Source of the DNA: Spizellomyces punctatus DAOM BR117
Lineage: Eukaryota > Chytridiomycota > Chytridiomycetes > Spizellomycetales > Spizellomycetaceae
Assembly: GCF_000182565.1 (NCBI RefSeq)
Contig: NW_015971543.1
Span: 1,263,378-1,327,377, forward strand
Reading direction: 5' to 3'
DNA: 64,000 bases
Part shown: piece after piece, positions 23,570 to 61,322 of the stretch
How positions within the stretch are numbered: the stretch's first letter is position 1
Layout of the letters: each line of letters begins with the position of its first letter
Notes under the pieces: generated by a model
The model's database searches: none
Told to the model about the DNA's origin: nothing
The model's input: the letters and a program-made list of their open reading frames with translations, nothing else
Made by a program: the position numbers and the translations under genes

Positions 23570-24958
23570 AAGTTCCTGCGTATTTTACGTGGAATATCAG
23601 GCCTAGCGGTACGACTTGTCTGGAATATATATGGAATAAAGGGTTAGGGTAGAAAAACTTGTATCGAAAGAGACATAAAGAGAAGTCGCGGCAGCTAGCC
23701 AACAGCGACATTGCAAGCCAAGAACTAGCCTTCTGAACACTAACTTTAGGTTTACTGCCGCACCCACCACTGACCCACACGTTCGCCTGCAAATCCTGCT
23801 CGGTTCACCCATAAGCGATCTCTTTGCCTCTTGGCCCCAAACTATCAGCAGAGACCCTCTTTTAGGATTCTTAGATGTACTCTTGCGTGCACGCACGGGA
23901 CTGTTGGGACCTGCAAGATAAATCTGTGCGTAGTTATATCCATATCTTTGGTCGAGAGGCCTGATTCGTGGGTAGTTTATATGCAAATACCAAGGGAATC
24001 GCTGATTGACTACGCTTGTCAACGCAATCACTTTCAATACCAGGGGATATCGGTGATGAAGAAGAAAATCGAAAAGCCCAGAAAATAGCCCGTTCCGTTA
24101 ACACCTAACGTCTTTGCTACGGACGCTGCGGTTGACTATAGTTGTAAACGGGATAGTTGCAGTAGTGGAAACGACGGGTGCTACAGTGACGAATATGTTT
24201 CCGGCGTAATTTATATGGAATACCAGGTGTTAGTGGTAATTGCTGGATCCAGCATATACACGCACCGGACCGTTAGGACCTGCCTAGAACACGGCCGTTT
24301 AATGAAGGTATGATATCTGCAGATTTTATATGCAACACCAGGGAGATTGCTGCTTGACTACACACTGTCAATGCAACAGCTTCTAGCCCTTAACCAAATA
24401 GCGATATGAATGAAGGGTAATTCATATGGAAAAATAGAACTCCCCTTAACCCATGCCTCTCGCCCCCAAACCACCAACCCTCTTTAGGATTCTGAGACCT
24501 TTTCCAATGCGCAGGACTGTTAGGACCTGCTAAAAGCTTGTTACAAGTCCATCACATGAAGGTATGATTCCTGCGTAGCTTATATCCAATATACAGAACC
24601 CCCTTTAACCGATACCTTTTGCCTCTCGCCCCCAAACTAGGAACCCTCTTTTAGGATTTAAGACCTTTCCGCCATGCACGGAATTGTTGGAACTTGTTGT
24701 AAGTCCGTTACATAGAGATATGATTCCTCCATGATATATTTGGAATACCACGGGAATTACCATTTGATAACACTTGTCAATGCAACAACTTGTACCATTC
24801 AACCAAATCGTGGCGGTAGGCATGATTCCTGCGCTATTTATATGGAATGTACGGTCTAGCGGTATGATTTCTGCGTAGTTTATGTGAAATGCCCGGCCTG
24901 GAGGTATGATTCTTGCATGATTTATATGCAATTCAACAATATATGTATGGTATACTTT
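23570..24958 (+). repeat. Decayed members of the tRNA-half repeat family and associated longer repeats
   Basis: Scattered degenerate copies of a motif like GGTATGATTCCTGCGTAGTT followed by TATATGGAATACCA occur near 23575, 23945, 24310, 24565, 24720, 24821, 24863 and 24905. The copy at 23945-23995 still reads TCTTTGGTCGAGAGGCCTGA. Interleaved is a second repeat (GCCCCCAAACTA...CCCTCTTTTAGGATT...GGACTGTTGGGACCTG), present at about 23834, 24467 and 24617. Divergence is much higher than in the array downstream. Confidence 0.65.
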
Positions 24959-25435
24959 CTATCATTGACCTAGCAGCATGATTCCTGCGCAGGTTACATG
25001 CAAATCAAGATGGTTCTTTGGTCGAAAGGCATGATTCCTGCGTGATTTGGTATGGAATTCATAAGGTTCTTTGGTCTAGCGGCATGATTCCTGCGCAGGT
25101 TACATGCAAATCAAGACGGTTCTTTGGTCGAGAGGCATGATTCCTGTGTGATTTGGTATGGAATTCATAAGGTTCTTTGGTCTAGCGGCATGATTCCTGC
25201 GCAGGTTACATGCAAATCAAGACGGTTCTTTGGTCGAAAGGCATGATTCCTGCGTGATTTGGTATGGAATTCATAAGGTTCTTTGGTCTAGCGGCATGAT
25301 TCCTGTGTAGGTTACATGCAAATCAAGACGGTTCTTTGGTCGAAAGGCATGATTCCTGCGTGATTTGGTATGGAATTCATAAGGTTCTTTGGTCTAGCGG
25401 CATGATTCCTGTGTAGGTTACATGCAAATCAAGAC
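24959..25435 (+). repeat. Tandem array of 53-nt tRNA-Pro 5'-half monomers in a 106-nt higher-order pattern
   Basis: Nine monomers lie end to end. Eight exact 53-nt units start at 25012, 25065, 25118, 25171, 25224, 25277, 25330 and 25383, with a partly decayed one before them. They alternate between type A (GGTTCTTTGGTCGAAAGGCA...) and type B (GGTTCTTTGGTCTAGCGGCA...), giving four near-identical 106-nt dimers. In both types nucleotides 1-30 match the 5' half of the tRNA-Pro gene at 25436, up to the anticodon stem CCTGC; type B differs from the tRNA at a single base. The remaining 23 nt are unrelated to the tRNA: type A carries GGTATGGAATTCATAA, type B carries TTACATGCAAATCAAGAC. Box A of the Pol III promoter is kept, box B is absent. 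Confidence 0.95.
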
Positions 25436-25507
25436 GGTTCTTTGGTCTAGTGGCATGATTCCTGCTTCGGGTGCAGGAGGTCCCGGGTTCGATCCCCGGA
25501 AGAACCC
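25436..25507 (+). tRNA. tRNA-Pro (anticodon CGG)
   Basis: 72-nt intronless tRNA gene. The acceptor stem is GGTTCTT/AAGAACC (7 pairs), the D arm GTC/GAT with loop TAGTGGCAT, the anticodon stem CCTGC/GCAGG with loop TTCGGGT, and the T arm CCGGG/CCCGG with loop TTCGATC. The discriminator is C and no CCA is encoded, as expected for a nuclear gene. The anticodon CGG reads the proline codon CCG. Boxes A (TGGTCTAGTGG) and B (GGTTCGATCCC) are intact. A T7 run at about 25530 could terminate Pol III. The tandem 5'-half array abuts it directly in register. Confidence 0.93.
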
Positions 25508-25604
25508 CTTCCACAGGACCCTCCCAGACTTTTTTTATCTTTGGGAGCTGCTGGGTTTTGTAAAGTGCGTAGTAGGAGCATTCCTCGCAAACACCAAATC
25601 GCAA

Positions 25605-61101: not shown

Positions 61102-61322
61102 GATCAAAAAACATAACGCAGGCCCCCTTTCACCCGCCGAGGCCCTCTCTATGACTGCCCTCCCCCTTAGGAACAATCATAGAGCTCCAATCCGAAGATG
61201 GAGGTAGCTGCTCACACCACGCGCACTACAGTCCAAGCCAACCAATTCACACACGGGGAGTCGAACGCCGGTCAGTCGAGTCGCACGTCTGCGCCTTAAC
61301 CAACTGGACTATTCGGCCCCCT
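61102..61322 (-). mobile_element. tRNA-derived SINE, full-length copy
   Basis: On the minus strand the element starts GGGGGCCGAATAGTCCAGTTGG and contains both Pol III promoter boxes: box A (TAGTCCAGTTGG) and box B (GCGTTCGACTCC). This tRNA-like head cannot form a matched acceptor stem, so it is not a working tRNA. A ~150-nt body follows that is nearly identical to 40323-40470, ending GGGGGCCTGCGTTATGTTTTTTGAT. Head with internal promoter, unrelated body and short tail make this a short interspersed element. No flanking target duplication was established by eye. Confidence 0.8.

Follow-up and report, generated by a model that had tools for sequence, protein, structure and literature searches.

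Arrays of tRNA gene start regions adjoin intact tRNA genes of five families in the chytrid Spizellomyces punctatus

We identified in the genome of Spizellomyces punctatus a class of gene-linked tandem partial duplications, in which the repeated unit is a contiguous piece of an adjoining tRNA gene together with its flank, and the intact gene stands at one end. Loci of this class were found for tRNA-Pro, tRNA-Cys, tRNA-Trp, tRNA-Thr and tRNA-Ser. We describe the architecture of the arrays, their restriction to tRNA genes in the searches made, their recurrence across families, and the pattern of alleles and phase at an apparent hybrid gene. It appears probable that these repeats arise from the tRNA start region by duplication and unequal exchange, with trouble at transcription initiation and a role of box A as conjectural parts of that account.

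Results and discussion

The proline array and its gene

The first array lies in the window, the 64,000-nt stretch of contig 7 (C7) analysed here. Tandem Repeats Finder reports a 106-nt period at 24970-25465 (4.7 copies, 97% matches), and a script listing of units divides 25012-25435 into eight 53-nt units of types A and B in strict alternation; both agree with the initial annotation, which had described eight 53-nt monomers in a 106-nt dimer pattern and correctly recognised their proline-tRNA identity. The units, all on the forward strand, are B1 (25012-25064), A1 (25065-25117), B2 (25118-25170), A2 (25171-25223), B3 (25224-25276), A3 (25277-25329), B4 (25330-25382) and A4 (25383-25435). Each comprises nt 1 to ~30 of a proline tRNA (to ~nt 32 at the paralogous locus described below), followed by a type-specific tail of ~22 nt. 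The distal end is formed by a decayed A-type unit, A0 (24959-25011, forward strand), with tRNA nt 1-18 degraded, box A at 9/11 and the tail intact; the paralogue has a decayed unit of this type too.

Without change of register, the array leads into its terminal member, an intact tRNA-Pro(CGG) gene on the forward strand (25436-25507 by Rfam RF00005, 55 bits; 25436-25508 by ARAGORN). A run of seven T at 25530-25536 (forward strand), about +22, is a probable Pol III terminator. The tail of A4 directly precedes the gene as its 5′ flank. What is repeated is therefore the start region of the gene itself, with ~22 nt from the 5′ side and tRNA nt 1 to ~31, spanning the Pol III start and box A. There is one intact tRNA gene per proline array.

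Older copies of the 5′ tRNA piece lie further upstream; like the in-register gene, they go beyond the initial annotation. Decayed copies with a period of ~42 occupy 24818-24932 on the forward strand (Tandem Repeats Finder and BLAST), with BLAST matches at 24819 (E 0.012), 24853 (E 0.001) and 24895 (E 0.11). The region before them, 24080-24817 (forward strand), contains a weak copy at 24561 (E 0.11) and local duplications (self-matches of ~70%), and another decayed copy lies at 23946; the weak upstream copies together span E values from 4e-4 to 0.11. These copies suggest that the array has existed at this site for a long time.

A second proline locus and an apparent exchange between array and gene

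A search of the whole genome (24.0 Mb, 29 contigs) identified the same A-B array on contig 14 (C14:400954-401593, reverse strand), again ending in a tRNA-Pro(CGG) gene and 94% identical to the C7 array over 545 nt. Nine proline units precede the C7 gene and ten the C14 gene, with no other locus in the searches made, and an exact pattern for the junction of tRNA part and tail gave 10 hits genome-wide, all at these two loci; such searches score best candidates or exact patterns, so that decayed copies elsewhere could escape them. These searches thus returned the units only directly upstream of two tRNA-Pro(CGG) genes, and the term "satellite", used in the initial annotation, does not suit a repeat confined in this way.

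Each of the two arrays has its own diagnostic variants, common to most of its units, which indicates homogenisation within loci, as had been proposed earlier. These locus-specific variants also make it unlikely that the window array is an assembly artefact, as does the occurrence of the same design in other tRNA families. Sanger reads underlie the published S. punctatus assembly (24.13 Mb, 47.6% GC; PMC4991717).

The C14 gene itself appears to be a hybrid, part array unit and part gene. At linear positions 16 and 31 it carries C and G, the states of the A units (one C14 A unit has T16), whereas the C7 gene, tRNA-Pro(AGG) and tRNA-Pro(TGG) all have T at the corresponding places. Moreover, the unit directly before the gene is of type B at C14 and of type A at C7. 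The A-like states of the C14 gene and its B neighbour would both follow from one exchange, of the last A unit with the 5′ half of the gene. From the T state common to the other proline genes, we infer that the exchange probably ran from array into gene. With permissive Rfam filters the C14 gene scores 48.6 bits, against 55 for the C7 gene; with default filters no tRNA was reported at the C14 locus.

The same design in other tRNA families

We surveyed 92 tRNA calls made by ARAGORN, a large sample rather than a proven full set (one genome search scored 63 of 1032 candidates), for copies of each gene's own nt 1-18 with at least 14/18 matches within 450 nt upstream. Eleven of the 92 calls passed; one, an intron-tRNA call beside another Lys gene, was set aside, leaving 10. 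Among the genes examined, upstream 5′-fragment copies precede 2/2 Pro(CGG), 3/3 Trp(CCA), 2/3 Cys(GCA), 2/3 Thr(TGT) and 1/2 Ser(GCT) genes, and the third Cys gene has a single decayed upstream unit, which brings the array genes to 11. In a control with swapped genes and upstream regions, which still contained same-family draws, 8 of 920 pairs reached 14/18; four of these were same-isoacceptor draws and one paired Pro(AGG) with a Pro(CGG) array.

The copies lie on one side of the gene. None of the 92 calls has a copy of its own nt 1-18 within 250 nt downstream (for 20 of them, less than 250 nt of downstream sequence was available). When 37 genes were searched over 1200 nt on each side with a 27-nt query, downstream 5′ matches appeared only at a Lys gene (L033) and a Met gene (L036), each of which neighbours another gene of its kind.

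Unit sizes are 53+53 nt for Pro, 69+49 for Trp (69 only at one locus) and 25+51 for Cys; the Thr units are mostly 20 nt long (18 to 34), and in Ser a single duplication of 101 nt seems to represent an early stage. Within the units, the tRNA sequence ends at ~nt 30-32 in Pro, 22 in Trp, 20 or 27 in Cys, 18 in Thr and 30 in Ser, and the copy number of units differs between paralogous loci. A 251-base piece of the Trp array, tried as a candidate dispersed element, occurs at three loci, all of them tRNA-Trp.

Direct searches found three Trp and three Cys genes, all of the array class (one Cys gene with its single decayed unit), so that most or all of the tRNA-Trp and tRNA-Cys probably comes from array-bearing genes, although a diverged further copy could be missed. 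Low gene copy number does not explain which families carry arrays, because other families with two or three sampled genes have none.

Several other tRNA-like sequences were encountered. A box-B pattern used to widen the tRNA sample matched 84 places, and none of the eight short stretches taken from them is a tRNA according to ARAGORN; nor did ARAGORN call a tRNA in five box A/B pattern stretches (L092, L095-L098), which stand outside the 92. Two of these, L097 and L098, are the examined copies of a repetitive tRNA-like element that contains motifs of both box A and box B, found at 19 + 1 places in pattern searches and called a tRNA by neither ARAGORN nor Rfam. Another tRNA-like family with box A/B spacing comprises 61257-61311 of the window (reverse strand), L092 and L095; the last two have flanks in common and received no call from ARAGORN or Rfam, and the family is possibly a short Pol III element. 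A tRNA-Ile(TAT) gene (L102) has, 116 nt upstream, a 15/18 match to the reverse complement of its own nt 1-18. An assembly contig contains a tRNA-Leu(TAA) (L101, C1:807104-807169) of organelle- or bacteria-like appearance. The window has a GC content of 0.477 and encodes a Nic96-like protein that shares 96% identity with one from Spizellomyces sp. 'palustris'.

Flanking sequences

The array genes differ from the other sampled genes upstream of the start. Mean AT content at -45 to -22 is 0.46 in the 11 array genes against 0.71 in the 80 others (p 5e-7), and five consecutive A/T between -45 and -19 are present in 1/11 array genes against 65/80 others; the word TATA at -45 to -19 is about equally common in both (3/11 and 26/80). 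The low AT content could be a mere by-product of the duplications, which would displace the original sequence. Downstream, the first run of at least four T falls between +17 and +22 in each of the 11 array genes and at +17 to +27 in 76 of the 80 others, most commonly at +20 to +22. tRNA trailers are shorter in most eukaryotes.

At the three Cys loci (L014, L015 and L016), copies of the 3′ part of tRNA-Cys with a box-B-like core lie downstream of the gene, several of them followed by T-runs, at ~+150 in each locus, at +485 or +553 in two, and also further out. In arrangement they mirror the 5′ copies found upstream. Clear downstream 3′ copies are restricted to these loci, besides one 14/18 match at the C7 Pro locus; the contrast between 5′ copies in five families and 3′ copies in one is suggestive but not significant.

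Hairpin-like inverted repeats, recognised by eye, are located at the upstream ends of the Trp and Cys arrays. Relative to the tRNA they start at -244 (L041), -273 (L059) and -391 (L088) in the Trp loci and at -239 (L014), -246 (L015) and -94 (L016) in the Cys loci. In Trp, the hairpin repeats tRNA nt 3-22 in inverted orientation.

A model of array formation

We consider it quite likely that the arrays formed by duplication and exchange; slippage at the tRNA gene, one of two origins suggested in the initial annotation, is the best fit. A tandem duplication across the Pol III start and box A would leave the downstream gene whole and would therefore survive, making such events tolerable and repeatable; a duplication across the box B end would likewise leave a whole gene. 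Once two units exist, unequal exchange would expand and homogenise them and change their number, sometimes involving the gene as the terminal repeat, while old units decay. On this account, the same process has operated at all five tRNA families.

The duplications might be seeded by trouble at the 5′ Pol III pause. In yeast, Pol III density peaks where box A begins (PMC4937561), and active tRNA genes are mentioned in an Entamoeba paper as apparent recombination hot spots (PMC2652664); together these suggest that pausing or breaks could initiate duplication.

By-product or selected sequence?

The arrays may be functionless, a neutral by-product of tRNA starts prone to slippage and unequal exchange. 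We rate this as a substantial possibility that falls a little short of probable. It agrees with the absence of arrays from 80 of the 92 calls, with the accumulation of decayed copies upstream and with the variation in copy number between paralogues. Decay is not always distal, since a gene-proximal Thr unit (L013) is degenerate and a gene-proximal Cys unit (L015) has a box-A change.

The composition of the units fits neutrality less well. Within dimers, the tRNA parts of A and B match at 28/31 (Pro), 21/22 (Trp) and 19/20 (Cys) positions, that is, they are 90-95% alike, while the tails are unalignable (no better than shuffles, p 0.08-0.56). Box A is intact in 48/56 units, close to the earlier remark that every unit keeps it. 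Among the distinct box-A changes, 16/24 conform to the consensus (p 0.002 to 0.06, depending on transition bias), or 16/21 without three truncated Trp stubs that were counted as failures. Relatedness among the genes and among the units, together with the choice of units by their likeness to the gene, makes these and the other p values given here optimistic. This leaning towards allowed changes, and the fact that all Trp and Cys genes found keep the array class, also speak against a purely neutral origin. However, the A/B likeness extends to nt 1-7 and 20-29, so that selection on box A is insufficient to explain it. Gene conversion from the gene could account for part of the likeness, but in the Trp locus L059 the three full-length units have a change at nt 12 that the gene lacks.

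Other signs of function were not specific. Transcription through the arrays had been considered from the absence of T-runs, but the arrays lack AAAA as well as TTTT, with similar rarity, and this want of specific avoidance agrees with neutrality. Folding of the tails back on the tRNA part found no clear support either, since unit folding energies do not clearly exceed those of tail-shuffled controls (best fraction 0.07, for Pro B). Own-acceptor pairing of units gave low values even with no upstream unit.

A possible promoter role

A promoter role for the arrays is plausible, and we present it as a candidate, albeit a doubtful one, on the basis of sequence patterns. The tRNA part might be kept because a box A close to the start assists the usual AT-rich upstream element or takes its place. 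In yeast, TFIIIC positions TFIIIB upstream with a roughly fixed spacing to box A, and the A-box subcomplex of TFIIIC binds with low affinity on its own (PMC7528018). Extra A boxes near the start may aid capture or substitute for the AT block; the Thr units, at ~20 nt, are too short for separate start complexes. More specifically, the arrays could constitute a second promoter design, in which a self-copied array of box-A start regions replaces the AT-rich element and captures the A-box arm of TFIIIC or positions TFIIIB. This stronger proposal we hold to be unlikely.

It is improbable, too, that the array acts as an extra-TFIIIC element or, as the initial annotation suggested, as a set of TFIIIC-binding sites or a boundary. 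The intact box A in most units and the T-arm or box-B-like copies downstream at the Cys loci are in its favour. Nevertheless, the upstream units end at ~nt 18-32 and lack a box B throughout the five families, and binding through the A box alone is weak in yeast (PMC7528018). The arrays, furthermore, were found only beside tRNA genes, which are already bound by TFIIIC.

Unlikely alternatives: mobile or retroposed origins

It is very improbable that a small mobile element repeatedly inserts in the 5′ part of tRNA genes and rebuilds each gene from a copy of nt 1-k that the element carries, so that the former ends remain upstream. Such an element would explain why A and B tails cannot be aligned, why paralogous Trp and Pro loci share the array and the gene but nothing just past the tRNA 3′ end, and why the Trp and Cys arrays have hairpins at their upstream ends. 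Against it, no coding or dispersed element was found in the searches made, the tails are family-specific and range from 2 to ~71 nt, in Ser, flank and tRNA start have simply been duplicated locally, and two Cys loci, L014 and L015, have the downstream flank in common.

Retroposition of 5′ tRNA halves with later amplification, the other origin suggested in the initial annotation, is scarcely credible: the proline identity does end near the anticodon stem, where that annotation saw a cleavage point, but ends at ~nt 18, 20, 22 and 27 in other families mean that the end is not in general the tRNA-half cleavage site, and the units carry the 5′ flank, are continuous with it and in register with the gene, and had no dispersed copies in the genome searches made.

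Relation to known repeat systems

Each of the closest known systems differs from the arrays in a defining way, and we found no account, in the open-licence literature, of a nuclear tRNA gene class with arrays of 5′ self-fragments. As in a satellite, the repeats are head to tail and homogenised, but long arrays untied to one gene were not observed in the searches made. tRNA-derived SINEs contain a tRNA 5′ region with box A, and also box B, and are dispersed by retroposition. The chytrid units share the box-A tRNA start with them, yet are local, in register with a gene and end before box B; no head with both boxes was found, and the loci found number two for Pro and three for Trp. Extra-TFIIIC sites consist of Pol III promoter boxes without a tRNA product and are based on box B. 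In both cases a promoter box occurs without a tRNA product, but here it is box A only, and the array units lack the box B that marks sites bound without Pol III. Nor do the units resemble retroposed halves, with ends at the cleavage site and positions away from the gene. Animal mitochondrial genomes have partial tRNA duplications, with truncated copies near tandem repeats and tRNA genes; unlike the genes described here, those are not Pol III genes with internal promoters.

The tRNA arrays of Entamoeba come close in that number-variable tandem repeats adjoin nuclear tRNA genes (PMC2652664). There, however, whole tRNA units are arrayed, and the repeats are generally of 7-12 bp and are not described as tRNA pieces in the relevant portion of that paper (PMC2652664). 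No tandem series of whole tRNA gene units was seen at the proline arrays of the chytrid, where the 5′ part alone is repeated upstream of a single intact gene.

Implications

The arrays represent a recurrent structural change at tRNA genes, some of them very likely essential, in five families of one eukaryotic genome, and they look like a recurrent route by which tRNA genes gain extra pieces of their own start region. One array seems to have swapped sequence with a working tRNA gene. If the second-promoter reading were true, box B would be supplied by the gene only, and the array would be a renewable promoter of adjustable copy number, as well as a donor able to rewrite the 5′ half of the gene, as at C14. 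The loci lend themselves to a natural test of two questions: whether Pol III benefits from additional A boxes, and whether its 5′ pausing causes local duplication.
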